A stretch of DNA of 34,296 nt from a virus: IMG/VR virus record IMGVR_UViG_3300009425_002174, positions 1 to 34,296 of that record. One strand, 5' to 3'. Both the position numbers and the translations under genes were made by a program. Shown here piece after piece: positions 14,033 through 34,296 of this stretch. The notes under the pieces are model-generated. The model worked only from the letters and a program-made list of their open reading frames with translations. It did no database searches and had not been told where the DNA came from. Each line of letters begins with the position of its first letter. Position 1 is the stretch's first letter.

Positions 14033-14068
14033 AAAACATTAACATTTCTATAAATGGAGGATGTCTTT

Positions 14069-17000
14069 ATGACATTAAAAGTAGCGGACAGAGTTAGAGA
14101 AAATACCTCTAGTACCGGTGTTGGCGGTTTATCTTTAACCGGAAGCCCGGCAGGATTTCAAAGATTTAACGTCTTTTTAGCCAGCGGTGACATAACTTAC
14201 TACACTCTAGAAGAAAATGATAAATGGGAAGTTGGCGTTGGAACCTACGGCTCAAACAACCTAGAACGTACTACTATTCTTTCTAGCTCAAACAGCGGAA
14301 GTAAAATTAGTCTTGGCGGAAGCGGAGTGGTATTTGTAACTTATCCCGCTGAAAAAGCCATATTCAACAGTGAATCCAACCAGCTTGTTCTTGGTGCTTC
14401 TGGTCTACTTTTTTCTAACGGTACAAATCTAAAAGATGCTAAACTTGTTGAGCTTACAGATGTTAACCTTAGTGGAACCCCTACCCAAAATAGTGTTTTT
14501 GATTTAAATATTACTAATAAGTCTTTATCTATAGGTGATAAAACTGGCCCCACAAACAGTAATAATATACTTATAGGTTATGGCGCCGGGAGTGGAATAA
14601 CTAGCGGTAGTGATAGCGTTATTATAGGTTCTGAGTCTTCTACTATAAATAAAACCGGTCAGCATAATGTCCATATAGGAGCTAAAGCTGGCCCAACGGT
14701 ATCAGACGCCGCCAGCGCTGTCTATAGTAGCGTTGCTGTTGGTTATTCTGCCGGTAATAAAATGAGACATCAGTCTATTGCCATAGGATACGAAGCGGCC
14801 TTACACGCTTATGAAATAGGCTTTATTGGTATCGGTTATCAGGTTGGGTCTGGTCTTGGTGGCTATAGTACAATTATTGGATATCAGGCTGGTAGAACTT
14901 TGGGTGAAGATTATGCTATCGCAATAGGTTATCAGGCGGGTTACAATGGAGCAGGAGAAAGTGCTGTATGGATAGGTCAGGGCGCTGGACACTCCTCTAC
15001 AAGTTCAACCAAATCTATAGGTATAGGTAAAAACGCTGGTAAAAGCTCATCTGGTACTGAGTGTATTTATATTGGGGAGTCTGCTGGTTTATCTAACTCC
15101 ACTTCAAATCTTTTATTCATTGGTAATGGTTCACCCGCCGCGAGTGACACCTTAATAAAAGGAGACATGGATTCTAAGAGGGTGGCTATTGGGGTTGCTG
15201 ACGTTACTCTTTCTGACACTCTTTTTGTTGGCGTAAATGCTGCAAATGATGAAGGTTTAGTAGTAAAAGGTGCCGCTTCACAGGTTTCAAATTTAACAAG
15301 TTGGAAGAATAGTTCTGATGGTGTTTTAGCTTCTGTAGATAATGATGGAATTATTTCTGGTCATGGCATTTATGCGACTGGGAACGGAATACAAATAGCG
15401 AATACTACACCAAGCGTAACAACGAATAAATTATACAATGCTGCCGGAACTCTGTATTTTAATGGTTTTCAACTTGCAACCGCTGGCGCTAGCTCAGAAG
15501 CCTCATATGCTTCTGGTCAGGCTATCGCCAATGAAAGCGATATTGTTGCCGTATCTGGCATAGCCGCTTACGCTTCAGGTGTTGGCGGGGGCGGTGGAGA
15601 TGTAACCACCGCTCAACTTAACTATGTTTCAGGTATAGCTGTTTATAGCTCAGGGCAGACTATAGAGAATCAGGGTAATATCACCGCGCTAAATACAGCT
15701 TCTGGTATCGCTACCTCTTTACTAGCCGTTTCCGGTACAGCAACTTCGTTAGTTGCCAGTTCGGGTATAGCCACCTATGCTAGCGGTCAGGCTATAGAAA
15801 ACGAAGGTCTTGCGACATATGCTTCGGGTCAAGCAATATCTAATCAGGGCAATATCACCGCCTTAAATACTGCTTCTGGAATAGCCACCTCTTTATTAAC
15901 GGTTTCTGGAACGGCCACTTCATTAGTTGCCACGTCTGGTATCGCGTCATACGCTTCTGGAAATACCGCAAATATTACTTTTGGATCTAACGCCGAAGGT
16001 GATATCCTTTACCATAATGGAACCAGTTTCACTAGGCTTGCTAAAGGTACAAATAATTATATACTGAAGATGGACGGAAATGTACCAAACTGGGAAGCAG
16101 AAAGTAGTGGTGGTGGAGTCAGTACGGCAGATTTAAACTATGTATCAGGCATCGCTGTATATAGTTCAGGGCAGACAATATCAAATCAAAGCAATATAAC
16201 CGCACTAAATACAGCTTCTGGTATCGCTACCTCTCTGTTGGCCGTTTCTGGCACGGCAACCTCGCTGGTTGCTAGTTCGGGCATAGCGACCTACGCTAGT
16301 GGGCAAGCGATTGAAAACGAAGGTCTTGCGACATATGCTTCTGGTCAAGCCATATCAAATCAAGGTAATATTACAGCCTTAAATACCGCTTCTGGAATCG
16401 CTACCTCTTTATTAACGGTTTCTGGAACGGCCACTTCATTAGTTGCCACGTCTGGTATAGCCACTTACGCTTCTGGTCAGGTTAATATTACAACGGATGG
16501 TACAGTAGAGGCTTCTAAGGCTATAATCTTAGATTCGGCAAAAAGTTTTACTGGGATTAAGCATGGAAGATTTTCTCAGTTTGATTCCTTTGTTTATAGT
16601 ACTGGTGTTAGTGTTGGTAATTCTGGTGTTATTCTTGTTAGAAATACTCCCGGTGTTACTACTGACACATTATATAATGTCGGCGGAACGCTTTACTTTA
16701 ACGGTTCTCAGCTTGCTAGTGCTGGTGGCGCAAGCACTACTGCTCAATATGCATCTGGACAAGCTATATCAAATCAGTCTAACATCACAGCATTGAATAC
16801 GGCTTCTGGTATAGCTACGTCATTAATTACTGTTTCTGGAACTGCTACTTCGTTAGTTGCTAGTTCTGGAATTGCAACCTACGCCAGCGGTCAGGCTATC
16901 GAAAATGAAGGTCTTGCGACATACGCTAGCGGTCAGGCTATATCTAATCAAGGTAATATCACCGCTTTAAGCACCGCTTCTGGAATAGCTACCTCTTTAT

Positions 17001-18922
17001 TGACAGTTTCTGGAACGGCTACTTCATTGGTTGCTAGTTCAGGGATAGCCACATACGCATCTGGCAACACGGCTAATATTAGTTTTGGATCAAATGCCGA
17101 AGGCGATATTCTTTATCACAATGGTACTAATTTTATTAGATTAGCTAAAGGTACTGACGACTATATCTTGAAAATGAATGGAAATGTACCAAACTGGGAA
17201 GCAGAAAGTGGTGGCGGAGATGTCACCACTGCTCAACTTAATTATGTTTCTGGGATTGCCGTTTACAGTTCTGGTCAGGCAATCGCTAACGAAAGTGATA
17301 TTGTGGCGGTTTCCGGTATTGCCGCTTTTAGTTCTGGTGTAGTTACCGATGTGGATGTTATTGTTGGTCAGGTGTCAACTACTGCCGGTACGGGCATAGC
17401 GATAGGCTATGGAGCCGGTCTTGACTCTTCTATCAATAACGCTAATTCCATTAACGGATATAAGGCTTCTGATGTTCTTATTGGGCATTTTGCTGGCTCT
17501 GGTTATATCCACCGCGCTCCCACCTCGACAGCACTTAGTAGCGTTCAACAAAATGTCATGATTGGTTTTAAGGCCGGGGCAGATTCTCTTAACTATAGAG
17601 GTGGTTCTACGGCGTTGGGCAGGAATGTATACATAGGGCTTGAGACTGGACATACTGCTTCTGGCTATGATAGGGTTTGTATAGGAAGTGAAGCAGGGAA
17701 GCGAGGAAGCGGCATTAGGGTTGTAGCAGTAGGTAAGAAATGTTTTGAAAACTCCGAAGGTGACGACAACACTGCTGTTGGATATAGATCGGGAGGATAT
17801 AGCACTGGTGATCATAATTTGTATTTAGGTCATTTGGCGGGTTTTGGGGTTATAGGTGCTAATAATATAGAGCTACTTACCGAAGGGCCGAATCCTAGTT
17901 TGATAGGCAGTAATAGTAACAAGATTAATATTGAAAACACTATTATTGGTGACACTTCCGCTAAAAAAATAGCCATTGGTAATATTGCTGCTGGCGACCT
18001 AACTCCAGATGCCACGCTTGAAGTTAAACCAAGGGTTGCGAGCGATATTGGCATCATAGTACAAGGTGCAGCTTCTCATTCTGCTAATTTACAAGAATGG
18101 CAAAACAACTCTGAAGAAGTTCTTGCTCGCGTTGAGCCTAATGGCGTTATATTTAGCAGCGGCGTAACGGCGAGCGGATTACTACTGCCCAACCATGTTC
18201 CCGTTAGTACAACAAACACCCTGTACAATGAGGGTGGTACGCTCAAATTTAATGGAGGCGCTACTTATGCTTCGTTGTTAACCGCTTCAGGGATTGCTAC
18301 ATCTTTATTGACTGTCTCCGGGACCGCCACAGCTTTAATTGCTAGTTCGGGAATAGCTACTTACGCTAGTGGTCAGGTAAATGTTACTACAGCCGGGACT
18401 GCCGTAGCTTCCAAAGCTTTAGTTTTAGATTCTGCGAAAAGTTTCACAGGAACCAAACATGGTGTATTTAATGAGTTTGATTCTAGGGTGACGGCTAGTG
18501 GTGTTACTATTGGCGCTTCTGGAATAACCTTAACTGGTGGAGCCTATGTCCAAGAAGCTGTACCGGCAAACGATACGCCAACAACCGAAGATGCGACGGT
18601 TACTATAGATTTAAATACTGGAAATTATCACAATGTTATATTGGGTGTTAATGTTACTAAGTTTGAATTTATAAATTCAAAAAGAGGTCAAAGATTTTTA
18701 CTAAGAATAACACAACATGCAGGCTCCGCAAAAACTGTTGCTTGGACCAATGTTGATTATACTACTGGGGGCGCTGCCGCAGCAGTAAGATGGGCCGGTG
18801 GCGGCACGGCACCAACCATGTCTACAGCAACTTCACATACAGATGTTTATGGTTTCCTCTGCACAAACGACGCCGGAAGCGCTTTTGATGGATTCGTAGT
18901 TGGTCAAAACCTCCCTGATTAG
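14069..18922 (+). CDS. Tail fibre / appendage protein with YadA-like repeats, 1617 aa
   Basis: I place the start at the second ATG (14069), 8 nt after TGGAGG, not at 14054. Order: N-terminal attachment domain (about 1-95: VADRVRENT ... YYTLEENDKWEVGVGTYG ... TYPAEKAIF), a pattern common in phage fibres. Next is a first run of YadA-head/Hep-Hag-like repeats (SIAIGYEA, IAIGYQAG, IGIGKNAG; DNA about 14560-15110). Then come large internal repeats rich in ASGIATSLL and ATYASGQ (15625-17060), a second YadA-like run (17395-17830), a short further repeat (18275-18375), and a C-terminal beta domain (EFINSKRGQRFLLRITQ). This is a trimeric beta-structured adhesin likely to bind the host surface. It stops with TAG. 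Its place between capsid and connector genes is unusual. Confidence 0.82.
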   Translation: MTLKVADRVRENTSSTGVGGLSLTGSPAGFQRFNVFLASGDITYYTLEENDKWEVGVGTYGSNNLERTTILSSSNSGSKISLGGSGVVFVTYPAEKAIFNSESNQLVLGASGLLFSNGTNLKDAKLVELTDVNLSGTPTQNSVFDLNITNKSLSIGDKTGPTNSNNILIGYGAGSGITSGSDSVIIGSESSTINKTGQHNVHIGAKAGPTVSDAASAVYSSVAVGYSAGNKMRHQSIAIGYEAALHAYEIGFIGIGYQVGSGLGGYSTIIGYQAGRTLGEDYAIAIGYQAGYNGAGESAVWIGQGAGHSSTSSTKSIGIGKNAGKSSSGTECIYIGESAGLSNSTSNLLFIGNGSPAASDTLIKGDMDSKRVAIGVADVTLSDTLFVGVNAANDEGLVVKGAASQVSNLTSWKNSSDGVLASVDNDGIISGHGIYATGNGIQIANTTPSVTTNKLYNAAGTLYFNGFQLATAGASSEASYASGQAIANESDIVAVSGIAAYASGVGGGGGDVTTAQLNYVSGIAVYSSGQTIENQGNITALNTASGIATSLLAVSGTATSLVASSGIATYASGQAIENEGLATYASGQAISNQGNITALNTASGIATSLLTVSGTATSLVATSGIASYASGNTANITFGSNAEGDILYHNGTSFTRLAKGTNNYILKMDGNVPNWEAESSGGGVSTADLNYVSGIAVYSSGQTISNQSNITALNTASGIATSLLAVSGTATSLVASSGIATYASGQAIENEGLATYASGQAISNQGNITALNTASGIATSLLTVSGTATSLVATSGIATYASGQVNITTDGTVEASKAIILDSAKSFTGIKHGRFSQFDSFVYSTGVSVGNSGVILVRNTPGVTTDTLYNVGGTLYFNGSQLASAGGASTTAQYASGQAISNQSNITALNTASGIATSLITVSGTATSLVASSGIATYASGQAIENEGLATYASGQAISNQGNITALSTASGIATSLLTVSGTATSLVASSGIATYASGNTANISFGSNAEGDILYHNGTNFIRLAKGTDDYILKMNGNVPNWEAESGGGDVTTAQLNYVSGIAVYSSGQAIANESDIVAVSGIAAFSSGVVTDVDVIVGQVSTTAGTGIAIGYGAGLDSSINNANSINGYKASDVLIGHFAGSGYIHRAPTSTALSSVQQNVMIGFKAGADSLNYRGGSTALGRNVYIGLETGHTASGYDRVCIGSEAGKRGSGIRVVAVGKKCFENSEGDDNTAVGYRSGGYSTGDHNLYLGHLAGFGVIGANNIELLTEGPNPSLIGSNSNKINIENTIIGDTSAKKIAIGNIAAGDLTPDATLEVKPRVASDIGIIVQGAASHSANLQEWQNNSEEVLARVEPNGVIFSSGVTASGLLLPNHVPVSTTNTLYNEGGTLKFNGGATYASLLTASGIATSLLTVSGTATALIASSGIATYASGQVNVTTAGTAVASKALVLDSAKSFTGTKHGVFNEFDSRVTASGVTIGASGITLTGGAYVQEAVPANDTPTTEDATVTIDLNTGNYHNVILGVNVTKFEFINSKRGQRFLLRITQHAGSAKTVAWTNVDYTTGGAAAAVRWAGGGTAPTMSTATSHTDVYGFLCTNDAGSAFDGFVVGQNLPD
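15625..17060 (+). repeat. Large tandem repeats inside the fibre gene
   Basis: Three blocks (about 15625-15960, 16140-16475, 16745-17060) each hold two 57-residue (171-nt) units of the type NQGNITALNTASGIATSLL. The first two are nearly identical at DNA level in places (for example GGTCTTGCGACATATGCTTC at both 15808 and 16323). The third differs mostly by synonymous changes. A further half unit is at 18275-18375. Linker modules are duplicated too: FGSNAEGDILYHNGT at about 15975 and 17077, and DSAKSFTG at about 16530 and 18433. Confidence 0.85.
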
Positions 18923-19404: not shown

Positions 19405-19731
19405 ATGGCATTTGTAGAACAGGCGCATGTTAACGATATAGGCACAGCTTTTAGGGTTACGGTTTACGACACTTCGTCCACCGGGACTACTTCTGTGGCT
19501 AATATTAGCAGCGCAACAACCAAAAAATTCACATTTAAAAAACCAGACGGTTCGACTTTTGAGAGGACTGCTGTATTTACTAGTGATGGGTCTGATGGTC
19601 AAATACAGTACTTGACCGTTGATGGCGATTTGTCTGGTCCCGGAACTTGGCATTTGCAGGCATACGTTATAACTTCTGACGGGACGTGGAATACTAGCGT
19701 GGGTTATTTCAAAGTTAACGAAAATTTATAG
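19405..19731 (+). CDS. Small beta-sandwich virion protein, 108 aa
   Basis: ATG 19405 has a good ribosome site (CTGGAGGCATATT). The pattern NDIGTAFRVTVYDTSS ... KFTFKKPDGSTFERTAVF ... GDLSGPGTWHLQAYV resembles the Ig-like N-terminal fold of phage baseplate upper proteins and related small virion proteins: polymerised PDGS loop, strands and a Trp near the end. It stops in TAG and the next gene begins 7 nt later. Likely a structural adaptor or decoration protein; the exact role is unknown. Confidence 0.55.
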   Translation: MAFVEQAHVNDIGTAFRVTVYDTSSTGTTSVANISSATTKKFTFKKPDGSTFERTAVFTSDGSDGQIQYLTVDGDLSGPGTWHLQAYVITSDGTWNTSVGYFKVNENL

Positions 19732-26188: not shown

Positions 26189-26225
26189 ACGGGGGAAATG
26201 TAAAAGTTTCCTCCGTGTTTTACAT
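26189..26225 (+). promoter_or_regulatory. Two overlapping, mutually exclusive hairpins before tape measure
   Basis: Hairpin A pairs ACGGGGGAAA (26189-26198) with TTTCCTCCGT (26207-26216): 10 bp with one G-U, 8-nt loop, followed by GTTTTAC. Hairpin B pairs ATGTAAAA (26198-26205) with TTTTACAT (26218-26225): a perfect 8 bp with a 12-nt loop. B uses A's loop and A's right arm is B's loop, so both cannot form at once. A resembles a weak terminator and B an antiterminator, but no ligand or partner is evident. The tape-measure ribosome site (GGCGGAGAAAAG) follows directly. Confidence 0.6.
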
Positions 26226-26239
26226 AGGGCGGAGAAAAG

Positions 26240-27901
26240 ATGGCACAACAATTTAATCTAACTGCACAAATAAATTTGCAGTCACCGAAGAATGTTGGAA
26301 GGGTTGTTGCTGATATCCAGCGGCAACTAAAGGGTAAAGGCTTAAATACGGTAAACATAAAGGTAAAAGCCGACCCTAGAGCATTGGCCCAGACTAATAA
26401 GCAGCTTCAGAGCGTCGGTAAAAATTCTAGGAGGGCTGCCAAAGATATTAGTGTTCTTAATTCAAATCTTCGTGAATCTGCCCGCAGATTTAGTGTTATT
26501 ACGGTTGCTACTGGCGGAATGCTTGCCCTTGTTACAGGACTTAAAAACGCCACAAAAGCCGCTATTGCATTTGAGCGAGAGATTATTAAGATATCGCAGG
26601 TTACTGGTAAAAGTATACAACAATTACGAGGGTTGACACAAGAGGTAACTAGACTTTCTACTACTTGGGGTGTTTCATCTACTGATTTACTCAGCGTTTC
26701 TCGCACACTGGCTCAGGCCGGTTTTAGCGCAGAAAAAACCCGTAAAGCTCTTGATATTCTCGCCAAGACCACCCTTGCTGCTACTTTTGACAATATTCAA
26801 GATACTACAGAGGGTGCGATTGCGCTGCTCAGACAGTTTGGAGATGAAGCAAGACGTAGTGGTGGCGATATAGCTTTTCTTGAGAAAAGTCTGAGTGCTA
26901 TCAATAGTGTATCTAAGAAGTTTGCGGTTGAGTCTGGAGATTTGATTACGGTTATTCGTAGGGTTGGTGGTGTCTTTTCTGCTGCTGGCGGTGAAATAAA
27001 TGAATTAATTGCATTGTTCACTAGTGTTCGTTCTACCACCAGAGAAAGTGCAGAAACTATTGCCACTGGTCTTCGTACAATTTTCACACGTATTCAAAGA
27101 CCTGAAACCATAGCTCAATTAAGAGAGCTTGGAATTGTATTGCAAGATGCTAAGGGTAATTTTGTTGGGGCTTTTGAGGCGGTAAAAAGGCTTTCTTCGG
27201 GGCTTAGTTCTATAGATCCTAGAAGTGGTCTTTTTAGTCAGATTGTTGAAGATCTTGGTGGGTTTCGTCAGGTTGGTAAGGTTATTCCTCTTATTCAGCA
27301 GTTTGCCGTGGCTCAGAATGCCCTTAATGTTGCTCAGGGGGCTAGTGGTTCTGTATCTAAAGACGCAGCAAAGGCCCAGCAGGGGCTAGGTGTACAAATA
27401 ACAAAAGTCAAAGAAGAATTTACAGCACTGATACGTAAGTTTTCAGATAGTAGTGCTTTTAAGAGCATTGCCGGGGGCGCTCTTGAAATTGCTAGCGCTA
27501 TGATAAAGGTGGCTGATGCGATAACGCCTCTTATTCCGCTTTTGACAGCTATGTTTGCCATGAAAATAGGCAGAAGTTTAGCTCCGGGTATTGCTGGTAT
27601 GGCGGGAATGGCTAGGCGTGGTGGCGGCGGTCCTATTGGCGTGAGTAAGTTTGCTAAAGGGGGTGTTGTTCCGGGGAGAGGGAATCGTGATACAGTACCA
27701 GCAGTGTTGACCGCTGGTGAATTTGTCATAAGAAAAGATAGTGTTAGCAAGATAGGTGTAAATAATCTACAAGAGATGAATGCTACCGGTTTTGCTGCTG
27801 GTGGCGCTGTTAGAAGCGGTAGGAATAATTATGGCATTAGGACGAGTTTAGAGGGGCTTAGAAAACAGAAATCGTTTGACGCAAATTTTAAAGCGGGATA
27901 G
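26240..27901 (+). CDS. Tape measure protein, N-terminal part (553 aa, ends in TAG)
   Basis: The gene that sets tail length. The N-terminus is tape-measure-like (MAQQFNLTAQINLQSPKNVG, then helical RNVRRQLKG-type segments). Residues about 85-330 carry the PhageMin_Tail / TP901 core: FEREIIKISQVTGKS, TRLSTTWGVSSTDLL, TTRESAETIATGLRTIF, ELGIVLQDAKGNFVG. A hydrophobic segment (ITPLIPLLTAMFAMK) lies near 430. The end holds the motif DTVPAVLTAGEFVIRK. Ribosome site GGCGGAGAAAAG. A TAG at 27899 ends it, yet the same frame stays open for the rest of the window. The 553-residue product alone would be too short for this phage's likely tail, so I treat this and the next entry as one tape measure interrupted by an amber codon. 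Confidence 0.8.
   Translation: MAQQFNLTAQINLQSPKNVGRVVADIQRQLKGKGLNTVNIKVKADPRALAQTNKQLQSVGKNSRRAAKDISVLNSNLRESARRFSVITVATGGMLALVTGLKNATKAAIAFEREIIKISQVTGKSIQQLRGLTQEVTRLSTTWGVSSTDLLSVSRTLAQAGFSAEKTRKALDILAKTTLAATFDNIQDTTEGAIALLRQFGDEARRSGGDIAFLEKSLSAINSVSKKFAVESGDLITVIRRVGGVFSAAGGEINELIALFTSVRSTTRESAETIATGLRTIFTRIQRPETIAQLRELGIVLQDAKGNFVGAFEAVKRLSSGLSSIDPRSGLFSQIVEDLGGFRQVGKVIPLIQQFAVAQNALNVAQGASGSVSKDAAKAQQGLGVQITKVKEEFTALIRKFSDSSAFKSIAGGALEIASAMIKVADAITPLIPLLTAMFAMKIGRSLAPGIAGMAGMARRGGGGPIGVSKFAKGGVVPGRGNRDTVPAVLTAGEFVIRKDSVSKIGVNNLQEMNATGFAAGGAVRSGRNNYGIRTSLEGLRKQKSFDANFKAG
27781..27837 (+). repeat. Direct repeat copy 1 inside tape measure
   Basis: 57-nt copy encoding ATGFAAGGAVRSGRNNYGI. 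It is about 80% identical in DNA to 28792-28848. The offset is 1011 nt, a multiple of three. It directly follows the DTVPAVLTAGEFVI motif and precedes the amber codon by about 60 nt. Confidence 0.8.
27899..27901 (+). other. In-frame amber codon splitting the tape measure frame
   Basis: GGA-TAG-GTG. The frame is open from 26240 to the window end apart from this codon. No other gene here has an internal TAG in its annotated frame, and nine genes use TAG as their stop. Confidence 0.9.
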
Positions 27902-30900
27902 GTGATAAGTGGTGAAAAAAGCACCGTTGGAGGCAAGAAAATAGCAACTGGAACACTAACACCCATGCTAAAAGCGGAACAATTAGCTAAAACCTATGCC
28001 GACGAAGATACTTATGGCGCTGCGTTCCTGAGACCAGAAGCTAGAGGTAAAAGTTTTGCAGGACGCATTAATAAATCGAATTTAGTCGTCGCAGTAAAAG
28101 ATGCAATGACTAAAACTGGGATAGCTCATGGTGGGTCCAAAATGGTCAATGCGGCTGCGACAAAAAAAATTGTCGATACATATGCCTCTAGAAACACTTT
28201 TAAAGTAAATGCGGGATCTTTAGAAAAATTAGAATCAGAAAAATTAGAAGATACTATACTTAATGGTGTTGTGAAGACCGCCAAAAAAGGTGCTAGCCAA
28301 CTAAATAGCTCGTTAGGAATACAAGGCAGTGGGAATATAGCAAAATCTTTAAAAAGTGCAAATATAGATCAGGTAATAGGAAATCTATTTGAATTAATTT
28401 TAACAAACGCTGGCGCGCCATATGGCGCACCCGATAAAGACCTTCCAAATGCTCCGTTTGATTTTCCTTCTGGTCTAGGAAACTCGCTCGCTAAGAAGTT
28501 TGGTATACCTGCCAAAAGTAAGTCTGAAGCAAAATCGTATTTTAGTGAACCAAACATAGCAACCCTGAACAAGAAAGTTCAAAACGAACTTAAAAATGAA
28601 ACAACAGAAGAATTAGCCCGTGTCTTTAATGTGATGAAGGCGGCAAAGGCAGGAAGGAGAGTAAATGCGAATAAGGGTGGTGCTGCAAGCGATACTGTTC
28701 CTGCCATGTTGACTCCCGGTGAGTTTGTTATTAATAAAAGTGCAGCGAGTTCAATTGGTCGGGGCAACCTAGATCGCATGAATGAAAAGGGTGTTACTGG
28801 ATTTGCTGCTGGTGGGGCTGTTACTACTGGGAGGAATAATTATGGGGTTATGCCTACGGGTGGTATGCGCGTCGGAATCGGCGCTGGCGATTCAGTTGAA
28901 CTCAAAGCGAAAAAGTTGGCGGCTGCACTTCAAAAAATGGGATTTAGTACAGAAAAAATCAATGCTATTATGCCTAAATTTTCTCAAAACTTAAAGGAAG
29001 GTGATAGTAACGCAGAAGCCTTAGAAAAAGCGATGCAAGATTTAAAGCTTGGTGTAAAAAATGTAACAAAAGAGTACCAAAGAGAACAAAAAGAAATACA
29101 AGAATCTAATGCCGCCAGAGATAAAGAACAGATCAAAATGAGTAAAAGGGCTGCCGGTGCTGGCATGGTAGGCGCTGGCGCTCAAAGGGTATCAAGAGTA
29201 GCCGGTAGCGCTCAAGGTCTAATGATGATGGGGGTTATGATAGGAAGTGTTACCAGTCAGATGTCGGGACTCAACGATGCTACAAAATCAGCCATTAATC
29301 AAACCGTTGCGGCGGGGGCTGCTATTGCCATGATTGGCGGAATGGTAGTTGAGATGGGGGCGTCTCTGGTTAGTGCGGCAGCAAACAGTGTTGAGTCCGC
29401 AGCGTCACTGGCTGCCGCTGGTGCTGATGCGACTGAGGCTGGGGCGTCATTGGCGGTAACGGCAGCTTTGGGGCCACTTGCCATAGCGGGCTTCGCCTTG
29501 GCTGCCGTGTTTCTTGTATTGGTGGCTGGTCTTGCGATTGCCGCTGGAGCCGCTTTCTACTTTTCTAGAAAGGCTAAAGCCGAGGCTGATGAATTTGGTA
29601 AGGCTGCCCAAAAATTTAGGGATGAATTTGCAAAAACCGGGGAGGGGATGGCCGGTATTATAGAAAACGTAAGAAAGCAGTCACAAAAAGAGGAAGAGTC
29701 TAGGCAGGAAGCGGTGAAGGGGGCATCTATGTTTGGGGGGAGTGCGGCAAAAGCGGTGGGTGCGACAGACGAGGAAGCCGCCGCAGCGAGTGGCGGAGCG
29801 TGGGCGGGGGCGGTGGAAGGCTACATGATGGGCAGTCTGGGGGGTAATCCTTTGCTGTTTGCTAGCGGACTTACGGGCGCGGCAGTCGGTGCAACATACG
29901 GGGGAAGAAGTGGGGCAGAAGGCGAGATGGAGGATGCCATCCCAGAACGTCAAAAACTTGAAAATGATAGAGTGGCAAGTCTCAAAGCACAACTTACAAT
30001 AGAAAAAAAGCTTATAAGTTCTCTTAAAGATTTTGATGGTAGATTAAATGAAATTGATTTGCTGGATTCTTTGACCCCGGACAAAAGGGTTCGGGCAAGA
30101 CTTGACGCCCAAGAAAAGTTTAGAGCTAAAACTCCTAAGTTTGATCCGAGGGGTAAGGAGAGTCCATTAGCAAATTTAAAAGAGGCGAGACAAGCCGCTA
30201 TTGAGAATGTAGGTAAGGATAGCGAGGATGCTAAAACACTTCAAAGTATGGAGCTAGAAGATCTTAATAAGCTTGATTTTAGTAATTTTGATCTAGATCC
30301 GTTAGTTATTGCAAGACTGGAATCTTCTCTTACCGATTTAAATAGACATACAGAAACGGCTGCAAAACAGACCCAAGAATCGTTTAAAACTCTTTCAGAG
30401 GCTCGTCAACAAATAGATTTTTCTGCCATAAAGGACTTTGAAGAGCTTAAAAGTCTAAAAACTGACAGCACGGGAGATGCGGCAACTGAAGCAAATAAGA
30501 ATTATGCCCAATCTTTGAGAGATTCCATAGCGGCGATTGAGCTAGAATCCAAGATAAAGGAAGAATCGTTGAGATATGAAGCCGCTCAGTTGAAAGCTAC
30601 CGCTAAAAAAGGCAGCGTCGAGGAAACAAGGTCAATACAATTATCAAAACAAGCCGATGCGCAAGCGGTGGCTACCGGAAAGCTTACAAAACAACTTGAA
30701 GACTCAGAAAAATCTATGACTGAAGTCGCTTTGTTCAGAATCGAAGCAGATAAACTAGCGGCAGCGGCAGCGACTGCTCTCAGAAACTCTTTATATGATG
30801 CCGCCGAAGCTCTTGCAGGACTTGAAGAAAGAACCAAGTCTTTTCAAGATCAAGAAACCGCTATAAAAGACTTGGGTGGTCTCAGATCTAATAAAACAAC

Positions 30901-33900
30901 TGAATTAAAGGCCAAGGGCTTGGGGACTGTGGGCGCCCATACTGATCTTGATGATTTTAGATCGAGGGCTGATGCTTCCGTATCTGGTATCTCTGATCCA
31001 AAACAGAAGGCTGCCGCACAGAAGGCAGTCGATCAACAGATATCAGCCGCTGAAGCCCTTCGTAGCCTCAAGGGTCCAGATAGCGGGATTTTAGGTAAGA
31101 AAAGTACAGATTTGAAAAGAGATGTATCAAAGGTTACGTCTGGAGATATTGCGGGACTTGAAAAATTATTTAAAGACGTAAAAATTGACATTCCAGATTT
31201 AACTTTTTTGCCAGATGATATGCGGGAGTCGATATTAAGACAGATCGCAGAGGCGGCGGGTAAGGGTGTCAGCTTTGAAGATTTGGAAAAGATTACCAAG
31301 CCTATTGAAGAATCCGCTAGAGAATACCAAAAGACAACAGATGAAATGACAAAGGGGAATCAGGCATATCTTAATGCATACACCGCCTACTTGAATGAAG
31401 TAAAAGCCCAGTATAATGAAGAGGTAAAGTTTAGAAATAGTATTTTTGCAGCACAAGAAAAGGCTATAGATAGAGAGTTAAGGGCCAGAAACATCATCAA
31501 TAAATCATTGGGGCTAGATGCGGCGATTCAAGACAGGGGCGCAAAAGAAGCCAGAAGAAAAGCCAAGGCTCAATCCGATTTAGGTGCTGCGGGAGTGGGG
31601 ATAGCTGCTGGCGACACCGGAACGTTAGAAGCAGAACGAAAAAGACTAGGCAAACAATATAGAGATCAGGCCGAAGATATAAGAAATAGCGATCTGGGTC
31701 CAACAGGACAAGGGCAAGCTAAAAAAGCACAAGAAGAAACTTTAAAACGGTTAAATGCTGTCAATAAAGAGCTTGGAAGGATGGCGGATCAGAGCGATAG
31801 AGTTAATGATATCTTTAGTGAAATGGATAGAAATGCCGAAGCTATAGAAAGTGAAAGACAAAAAAGAGAACAAGTTACCAGCGTTATAGAAGATTTTGTT
31901 GTGGGGGGTCAGCAGACCAGAAAGGCTTTGGTTGATTCCGCTAATGGTATAAGGCAGGCATTTGCTAGCGGGACTTTACAAAATCAATCAGAGGAACAAA
32001 GATCCGCAACCGTAGGGTTGCTGGATAAATTGTCTGATGTGCCTTTGCTTAATGGGTTTACCGGTAAAGAAATTAAACAAGAGTTGGTGTTTAGAGACGC
32101 TATCAAAATGGGGCTTGATCCTAAAATAGCAGAAATGCTTGCTACTGCCACAAGCAAAGAGCAACAGCTTATTGATTCTAACGAGCGCTTAGGTTTTGAA
32201 CTTCATCTGCTTACGCAAGAAATAGCGGGGGCTGCACAAGGGTTATCTCCTCTTGAGAATCCGGGGATGATTGACCTCGGCATGAATAAAGGTGGAATGG
32301 TTTATAAGGCTAGTGGTGGAAGTATATTTAAACCAAGGGGGACAGACACTGTTCCGGCCATGCTCAGTCCGGGCGAGTTTGTTATCAGGAAGTCTGCTGT
32401 TGATAGTATTGGGGCTGATAATTTAGCTGCTATGAATAATGGTACAAATTATCTTGATAAAGGGGGACAGGCACATGTTCATACACCATCCGATATTATA
32501 CGCGCTCGCAAGGCACATGAAAAATATAAACAAGGTATGGGTGAATTTTTCTTAGGTTGGACCGTTGACGATTTTGACGAAGAGGCTTGGCTTGCTGGTA
32601 GTGGTCCAGATTTTTCTGGTGATGCCAAAATAAGAGCGGGAACGGCTGCGGCAAAAGGTTTTATGGGCGTGACGGAGGGCCAACCTCAAAGCGGTCCTAG
32701 TAGTTATGGGTGGTCGGAAAAAGCAGATGTAATACAGGGGACGACTCCAATAAGCCCGGCTGAAAAAATGCTTGGCCTTACGAGAGGTACTAAATCTGAG
32801 GATCATTATTCCAATGCTGGTGAGGGTAGTAAAGTTCCCGGTAGCATGTCTAGGGCGGAGCAGGCGGCGCAGGGCGCTGGTTCGGCCCTTCTTGGCGGTG
32901 TTGATGGTTTTTTTGGGCTGGGTAATTATGCAGAAAGTAGCCAAGAACGCCGTCGTCAAGAGGGTAATCAACGGGCAAACGTTCAAACTAATAAATCGCA
33001 AATGAAATTCGATCAAGAAGAGCTAGAGGCTAAGAAAAAAGTTCAGTCCGAACAAGACGCCCTTCATATAGCTAGGTTTAAGTCGATGAGCGATCAAACG
33101 TCGATAGGAAGATATTACCAAAAAACTGGCGATCTTAAAGGCACCCTAAAATATGAACAAAATCAATTGGCTGCTCAAAGACAGGCAAACTCTCTCTCAT
33201 CAAAGACTGAGAGAAAAAAGATACAAGCTGAAATAGAGGAAATGAAAGAATACTCTGACCAAGTAAGTTACAACATGTCTGTAGACACTGAAGGGGTTCC
33301 GATACAACAGGGATTGAAAGATCAAGACGGAACTGCTCACCAACAAAAAAGCATACTTCAACAACAAGCTGAAAATAGAAGTAATGCTTTTACGGCGTAT
33401 ACAATGTCCATGCTGAAAAATAGCTCAAGGCTAGGGTATAATACTGATGTGGTTTCTCAAGAAGAACGTGATAGGATATTTGGTGAATATAGTAGCCATT
33501 TAAATAATCCAGATGCGGAATTGCAAAAAGAATATGAGAAAGCCCAAGAAGCGGTGAGAAGCCACTGGCGTACCGAACAGATGGGGAAAAGCGCAAAAGA
33601 AAACAAAGAGGCTGCCGCAGCCAAGAAAAGAGTAACCGACGAATTTGCTCCCAAAGGTGAAACGTCTGGTTTGGAGAGTGTGAAGATGGGCGGCGGTGTG
33701 GCCGCGCCCCTTGAAGATAAATCACTTGTAGACGATATACTTAGCAAGGCTGAATCTTATGATTCTAGTGAAAAGTCTAAGCTTAAAAATGTTGTTGACC
33801 AAGATCAAGCAACCACTGCCCAAAGAAAGAAACATGAAGACGTTATGGCGAAAAATGCGATAAGTGTCGCTAAAGCAGAAAAAGACCGGGCAGATAAAAA

Positions 33901-34296
33901 ACTAGAACACGAAAAACGAAGCGGTGATACTGGTATAATGTTTGGTAGTGATGATGCTAAAAATGCATATTTAGCTAGAGAAGACGCGCGTAAAAAGAGA
34001 AAAGAGGGAATGGGGCATGTTAAATTTGGCTCACATCTCATGGGAGAGGATTTTCTGGCATATAGAAACTATATTATTGGTGGTGGTTCCGCCAATGATA
34101 AGACAGCTAAGAAGCTTCTCGCGGAAGGAAAGAAAAAACAACAAACTGCCACACTTCCCGCTGCCGCCCCCGCTGCCGCCCCCGGTGAAGGTTTAGAAGA
34201 ATTTATAGCAAGAAAGGGAAGAGAAAATGAGTTTCAGGCGAGCATGGGGATGGAGCCGGGTAGACCAACAAGCATAAGTACAGGATTTACCCCGTC
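27902..34296 (+). CDS. Tape measure protein, C-terminal part (partial, at least 2131 codons)
   Basis: Same frame as the N-terminal part, starting directly after TAG (GTG 27902; next ATG 27965 has no clear ribosome site) and open to the window end. Order: a lysine-rich segment; a PD-(D/E)XK-like stretch (28381-28535); a second DTVPAMLTPGEFVI motif (about 28690); a glycine/alanine-rich hydrophobic region with a likely membrane helix (GFALAAVFLVLVAGLAIAAG, 29492-29551); long coiled coil (about 30000-32250); a third DTVPAMLSPGEFVIRK motif (about 32345); then a charged, Gln-rich C-terminal region with an AAAPAAAPG linker near 34160. This is the expected content of a long tape measure. Translation could occur by amber readthrough or by a separate start. 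Confidence 0.75.
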   Translation, partial: MISGEKSTVGGKKIATGTLTPMLKAEQLAKTYADEDTYGAAFLRPEARGKSFAGRINKSNLVVAVKDAMTKTGIAHGGSKMVNAAATKKIVDTYASRNTFKVNAGSLEKLESEKLEDTILNGVVKTAKKGASQLNSSLGIQGSGNIAKSLKSANIDQVIGNLFELILTNAGAPYGAPDKDLPNAPFDFPSGLGNSLAKKFGIPAKSKSEAKSYFSEPNIATLNKKVQNELKNETTEELARVFNVMKAAKAGRRVNANKGGAASDTVPAMLTPGEFVINKSAASSIGRGNLDRMNEKGVTGFAAGGAVTTGRNNYGVMPTGGMRVGIGAGDSVELKAKKLAAALQKMGFSTEKINAIMPKFSQNLKEGDSNAEALEKAMQDLKLGVKNVTKEYQREQKEIQESNAARDKEQIKMSKRAAGAGMVGAGAQRVSRVAGSAQGLMMMGVMIGSVTSQMSGLNDATKSAINQTVAAGAAIAMIGGMVVEMGASLVSAAANSVESAASLAAAGADATEAGASLAVTAALGPLAIAGFALAAVFLVLVAGLAIAAGAAFYFSRKAKAEADEFGKAAQKFRDEFAKTGEGMAGIIENVRKQSQKEEESRQEAVKGASMFGGSAAKAVGATDEEAAAASGGAWAGAVEGYMMGSLGGNPLLFASGLTGAAVGATYGGRSGAEGEMEDAIPERQKLENDRVASLKAQLTIEKKLISSLKDFDGRLNEIDLLDSLTPDKRVRARLDAQEKFRAKTPKFDPRGKESPLANLKEARQAAIENVGKDSEDAKTLQSMELEDLNKLDFSNFDLDPLVIARLESSLTDLNRHTETAAKQTQESFKTLSEARQQIDFSAIKDFEELKSLKTDSTGDAATEANKNYAQSLRDSIAAIELESKIKEESLRYEAAQLKATAKKGSVEETRSIQLSKQADAQAVATGKLTKQLEDSEKSMTEVALFRIEADKLAAAAATALRNSLYDAAEALAGLEERTKSFQDQETAIKDLGGLRSNKTTELKAKGLGTVGAHTDLDDFRSRADASVSGISDPKQKAAAQKAVDQQISAAEALRSLKGPDSGILGKKSTDLKRDVSKVTSGDIAGLEKLFKDVKIDIPDLTFLPDDMRESILRQIAEAAGKGVSFEDLEKITKPIEESAREYQKTTDEMTKGNQAYLNAYTAYLNEVKAQYNEEVKFRNSIFAAQEKAIDRELRARNIINKSLGLDAAIQDRGAKEARRKAKAQSDLGAAGVGIAAGDTGTLEAERKRLGKQYRDQAEDIRNSDLGPTGQGQAKKAQEETLKRLNAVNKELGRMADQSDRVNDIFSEMDRNAEAIESERQKREQVTSVIEDFVVGGQQTRKALVDSANGIRQAFASGTLQNQSEEQRSATVGLLDKLSDVPLLNGFTGKEIKQELVFRDAIKMGLDPKIAEMLATATSKEQQLIDSNERLGFELHLLTQEIAGAAQGLSPLENPGMIDLGMNKGGMVYKASGGSIFKPRGTDTVPAMLSPGEFVIRKSAVDSIGADNLAAMNNGTNYLDKGGQAHVHTPSDIIRARKAHEKYKQGMGEFFLGWTVDDFDEEAWLAGSGPDFSGDAKIRAGTAAAKGFMGVTEGQPQSGPSSYGWSEKADVIQGTTPISPAEKMLGLTRGTKSEDHYSNAGEGSKVPGSMSRAEQAAQGAGSALLGGVDGFFGLGNYAESSQERRRQEGNQRANVQTNKSQMKFDQEELEAKKKVQSEQDALHIARFKSMSDQTSIGRYYQKTGDLKGTLKYEQNQLAAQRQANSLSSKTERKKIQAEIEEMKEYSDQVSYNMSVDTEGVPIQQGLKDQDGTAHQQKSILQQQAENRSNAFTAYTMSMLKNSSRLGYNTDVVSQEERDRIFGEYSSHLNNPDAELQKEYEKAQEAVRSHWRTEQMGKSAKENKEAAAAKKRVTDEFAPKGETSGLESVKMGGGVAAPLEDKSLVDDILSKAESYDSSEKSKLKNVVDQDQATTAQRKKHEDVMAKNAISVAKAEKDRADKKLEHEKRSGDTGIMFGSDDAKNAYLAREDARKKRKEGMGHVKFGSHLMGEDFLAYRNYIIGGGSANDKTAKKLLAEGKKKQQTATLPAAAPAAAPGEGLEEFIARKGRENEFQASMGMEPGRPTSISTGFTP
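28792..28848 (+). repeat. Direct repeat copy 2 inside tape measure
   Basis: 57-nt copy encoding VTGFAAGGAVTTGRNNYGV. It follows the second DTVPAMLTPGEFVI motif, so motif plus repeat form a duplicated unit. Recombination between the copies would remove 1011 nt (337 codons) in frame, including the amber codon. Confidence 0.8.

Follow-up and report, generated by a model that had tools for sequence, protein, structure and literature searches.

What does a single amber codon in the middle of a giant phage reading frame stand for: a device for making two products from one message, a boundary between two genes, or a mistake in the genome or in its recorded sequence? The question is raised by a linear virus fragment of 34,296 bases, the whole of which is referred to as the window, with the end of its tape-measure protein (TMP) gene and most of the genome lying beyond it. 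The initial annotation had described one frame running from ATG 26240 with a single stop, and this was confirmed, as TAG 27899-27901 is the sole stop in that frame up to 34294 and the parts on either side of it, here called the N-part and the C-part, are in the same frame. We consider it very probable that this is one TMP gene interrupted by a sporadic nonsense codon. The features on which the argument depends are the following:

26225-26239, plus strand: ribosome-binding region of the TMP gene, GGGCGGAGAAAAG 5′ of ATG 26240, with an anti-Shine-Dalgarno duplex energy of -7.4
26240-34296, plus strand: TMP gene with one TAG inside, continuing past the window edge; relatives have it as a single conserved frame
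26240-27898, plus strand: tape-measure core, 553 aa ahead of the stop, with PF10145 at residues 134-327
27689-27781, plus strand: motif 1, DTVPAVLTAGEFVIRKDSVSKIGVNNLQEMN, which bounds the variable cargo region on the left
27782-27952, plus strand: linker with the stop, poorly conserved, open in relative L160 at nearly equal length
27899-27901, plus strand: in-frame TAG, private to this contig
27953-28669, plus strand: cargo domain of 239 aa, in which Glu, Asp and Lys do not vary across 35 relatives; its likeness to a nuclease is limited to the residue pattern
28691-28783, plus strand: motif 2, DTVPAMLTPGEFVINKSAASSIGRGNLDRMN, which bounds the cargo region on the right
29213-29563, plus strand: hydrophobic stretches of the C-part, probably membrane-spanning as judged from the sequence, with a putative function
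32345-32437, plus strand: motif 3, DTVPAMLSPGEFVIRKSAVDSIGADNLAAMN

The interrupted gene and its C-part

The identity of the N-part as a tape-measure core, proposed in the initial annotation, is borne out by its match to the Pfam family PhageMin_Tail (PF10145, E 6e-26, above the curated cut-off) and to PHROG tape-measure families, and this core match places the protein among the TMPs. Its likeness to the TMPs of PF10145 and of PHROG 28 and 4211 comprises the core domain, the late-gene position, the large size and the single frame in relatives, and variable cargo domains between repeated motifs are also found in that family, whereas the copy in the window differs by its one in-frame stop. Three DTVPAMLxPGEFVI motifs are present in the window TMP, one in the N-part and two in the C-part, the latter two being the further tape-measure motifs that had been reported there. 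Likewise, the membrane helix assigned to the C-part corresponds to long hydrophobic stretches at 29213-29368 and 29471-29563. The TAG itself falls in the linker that joins the tape-measure core to the variable cargo domain and that is poorly conserved.

The condition of the sequence beyond the stop is informative in regard to its age. The C-part can be aligned with relatives and retains 86% of the columns that are conserved among them, the relatives' own range being 68-92%, and because of this the long open C-part can be taken as coding and not as a product of chance. Furthermore, synonymous differences exceed non-synonymous ones throughout, and dN/dS against the closest long-contig relative (L003) indicates purifying selection, with a dS so high that the stop cannot be dated from it. 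By these measures the C-part has not decayed, and the stop is therefore recent, false or bypassed.

A 59-nt repeat flanking the cargo was considered as a possible duplication specific to the window and rejected; the repeat is old, because the same motif tails are found at the borders in L160 and other relatives. Elsewhere in the window, positions 14054-18922 encode a long fibre-like protein (1,622 aa) in which near-identical repeats, among them 'NITALNTASGIATSLL' and 'SSGIATYASGQAIENEG', are numerous.

Relatives across the stop site

IMG/VR was scanned with the N-part, with the start of the C-part and with two alignments, and 163 loci with the core were recovered, of which 116 are distinct (L-numbers are the labels of these relative loci). 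The frame is open for at least 170 codons past motif 1 in 103 of the 116, while 11 relative contigs end within that distance, and an in-frame stop past motif 1 was found only in L034. Motifs 1 and 2 are joined in one frame in 91 relatives, and the TMP frame is unbroken over at least 1,700 aa in 78. In the closest long-contig relative, L003 (same contig as L016), which is 81% identical in the core, the frame extends stop-free over 2,620 aa, and in L160, whose linker and cargo are most like those of the window, the linker is open and of similar length. Since the relatives are open across the site, the TMP gene is a single frame in this lineage, and the TAG is private to this contig.

A single N-part query had no match among GTDB genome contigs, while an alignment query recovered eight contigs binned in MAGs, none of which has a stop in the linker; in one of them, L199, the frame ends at 881 aa with TGA. 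An exact sequence pattern spanning the stop, any codon being allowed at the stop itself, had no match in IMG/VR that would represent the same population, and neither megablast of the window nor tblastn of the C-part had a match in phage records.

In relatives where the gene is complete, it is read in a single frame into one protein of about 1,800-3,500 aa, which consists of the core, motif 1, the variable cargo, motif 2, hydrophobic and coiled-coil parts and further motifs. In many relatives (e.g. L003, L060 and L084), a second very long frame, often of more than 1,000 codons, lies downstream of the TMP. As for the proposals made at the outset, a TAG conserved among relatives was not found, and the continuous frame in relatives speaks for a sporadic stop and against a conserved division into two genes, halves lying in different frames with separate ribosome sites being absent from them.

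Termination at TAG and possible routes past the stop

If TAG were recoded to an amino acid in the phage or its host, the stop would be no stop at all. Recoded phages do exist, and in phAss-1 TAG is found inside the TMP gene, as in the window (PMC10607447). However, in this truly recoded phage 41 ORFs contain TAG and three suppressor tRNA genes are present (PMC10607447), and phages of its type have TAG in dozens of ORFs, whereas the window has a single in-frame TAG, ordinary termination at TAG and no suppressor tRNA that could be seen. In the TMP frame, one TAG stands against 138 Gln codons among 2,685 codons in total. TAG ends eight other credible genes of the window, with TAA ending 11 and TGA six; nine TAG-ended genes had been counted initially, and of that claim the use of TAG as terminator holds while the number drops to eight. 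For the window genes with TAG ends at 19731 and 20239, relatives stop at the same place or within a few codons, with TAG or TAA, and portal homologues in relatives stop within two codons, with TAA. No tRNA was found in the 34,296-nt window, in the 79-kb record of the closest relative or in another record of 95 kb, and no CUA anticodon was present at the scanned loci of tRNA-bearing relatives. Neither the many in-frame TAGs in late genes nor the avoidance of TAG as terminator that characterize a TAG-recoded phage were observed. TAG is thus a normal, working terminator in this lineage, in agreement with the initial view that wholesale reassignment is unlikely, and a recoded TAG is hardly credible.

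With a working terminator, programmed or leaky readthrough could still yield a short core together with a minority of full-length TMP, and the identical frame on both sides of the TAG and the intact C-part would suit such a mechanism. In its most elaborate version, the amber codon would be a leaky switch separating the tail-length core from the enzyme-like cargo: most copies would terminate at 553 aa, a minority would include the cargo and membrane parts, and the amount of cargo would be set by the phage through translation; we regard this as very improbable, and the same applies to readthrough in general. The stop is not conserved in relatives, with the exception of the polymorphic L034, and no suppressor tRNA was found in the window or at the scanned relative loci. 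A stimulatory RNA structure 3′ of the TAG was not detected either, the folding of the 60- and 90-nt stretches after the stop being weaker than at about 70% of gene positions and weaker than the gene average. A literature search by title and abstract returned no case of readthrough in TMP genes. Programmed or suppressor-tRNA readthrough, the first of the explanations offered initially, is accordingly left unsupported.

Alternatively, ribosomes could stop at the TAG and restart nearby, for instance at GTG 27902 directly 3′ of it, with the 553-aa core and a separate C-part assembling together. The break lies in a flexible linker between domains, the C-part is intact, and the stop of L034 falls in the same linker, all of which would fit two polypeptides. 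On the other hand, Shine-Dalgarno pairing at GTG 27902 (-4.7) and at ATG 27965 (-3.3) falls in the background range seen at internal codons, none of the candidate starts shortly after the TAG differs from these in having a ribosome-binding site of its own, and a conserved split was seen in none of the 116 relatives. We therefore consider this arrangement improbable, if somewhat less so than readthrough.

An intron or similar element spanning the stop and spliced out also has to be mentioned, as TMP genes are known intron targets, e.g. in ICP1 (PMC10448857), where the TMP reading frame is likewise interrupted. Unlike ICP1, the window has no intron, homing endonuclease gene or extra length at this place: the stop-free linker of L160 is nearly as long, which leaves no room for such an element, the frame is unchanged across the stop, and Rfam gave no credible element in the window, its one match being a chance match far below the cut-off. 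Of all the readings this one is the least plausible.

Origin of the stop and the exchangeable cargo

Broken TMP frames are not limited to the window. Frameshifts are present in L033 and L182 and an apparent one in L056, the TMP of L041 is broken by a run with N, and L034 has a nonsense codon, TGA, in the same linker as the window's TAG. For the last case a sister is available, L035, which is 99.5% identical over 3,867 nt and has a sense codon at the position of the TGA. In the TMP part that they share, only four codons differ, all of them within 44 nt and all non-synonymous, and three of the four differences are G>T or C>A. One of the differences is the stop, and another affects the DGDT-like site within an endonuclease-like domain. 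Such a pattern suggests that the differences are probably read errors and not evolution. The clustered changes in L034, together with its open sister, show that contigs of this kind carry error-like stops, and by analogy the stop in the window could have a similar origin.

The expected frequency of such stops can be estimated roughly. About 4% of substitutions in the TMP gene create a stop, and with an error rate of 1e-5 to 1e-4 per base 0.3-2.7 nonsense codons would be expected in the approximately 226,000 TMP codons surveyed, where two were seen. Both fall in the same linker, for which the chance is about 3-6% by length; this is a mild coincidence, which would also fit a place tolerating a break.

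A sporadic nonsense codon could arise in two ways, both included among the explanations proposed initially. A wrong base in the consensus of the metagenome contig is the likeliest origin, and we hold it to be somewhat better supported than all others together; a true nonsense mutation with no programmed role, in a genome that is a variant or defective, comes next, and is rather unlikely. This division between sequence error and real mutation is an inference. In model phages, TMP genes do not tolerate amber mutations unless a suppressor is present, and for this reason a majority genome with a truncating stop would be unlikely, which speaks for a consensus error more than for a fixed mutation. 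Isolated premature stops are also found among near-identical T5-like isolates, where they affect tail-fibre and other genes (PMC5816814). The likeness consists in isolated stops that set apart otherwise near-identical phages, but the T5-like cases are isolates with sister genomes, while no contig nearly identical to the window was found in the collections searched.

Apart from the stop, the TMP gene contains a hypervariable cargo region, at 27782-28690 in the window, between repeated DTVPAMLTPGEFVI motifs. The window's own cargo domain was compared with PD-(D/E)XK nucleases, with Glu, Asp and Lys proving invariant in the 35 aligned sequences; its structure was predicted confidently (pLDDT 87.7), and a search with the predicted model gave no usable fold match in PDB or BFVD, so no nuclease fold is claimed. 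At the same site, ADP-ribosyltransferase domains occur in L043 and L079, above the Pfam cut-off, endonuclease-like domains in L007 and L035, and a polynucleotide-kinase-like (kinase/phosphatase-like) domain in L013. It is possible that the cargo domains are exchangeable enzymes that are injected.

A stop that was both real and programmed would amount to a new means of tuning tail assembly or the loading of cargo. The case also calls for caution, as very long single-gene frames in metagenome contigs gather isolated breaks, and a survey of relatives tells these from biology. The stop itself is of low interest, and the exchangeable enzyme-like domains of the TMP are more interesting. ADP-ribosyltransferases packaged in the virion are known, as parts of head proteins and of polyvalent proteins (PMC9503650), in a text where the word 'tape' is absent, and a TMP with exchangeable enzymes, as the sequences suggest, would be a variant of this known virion-packaging strategy.
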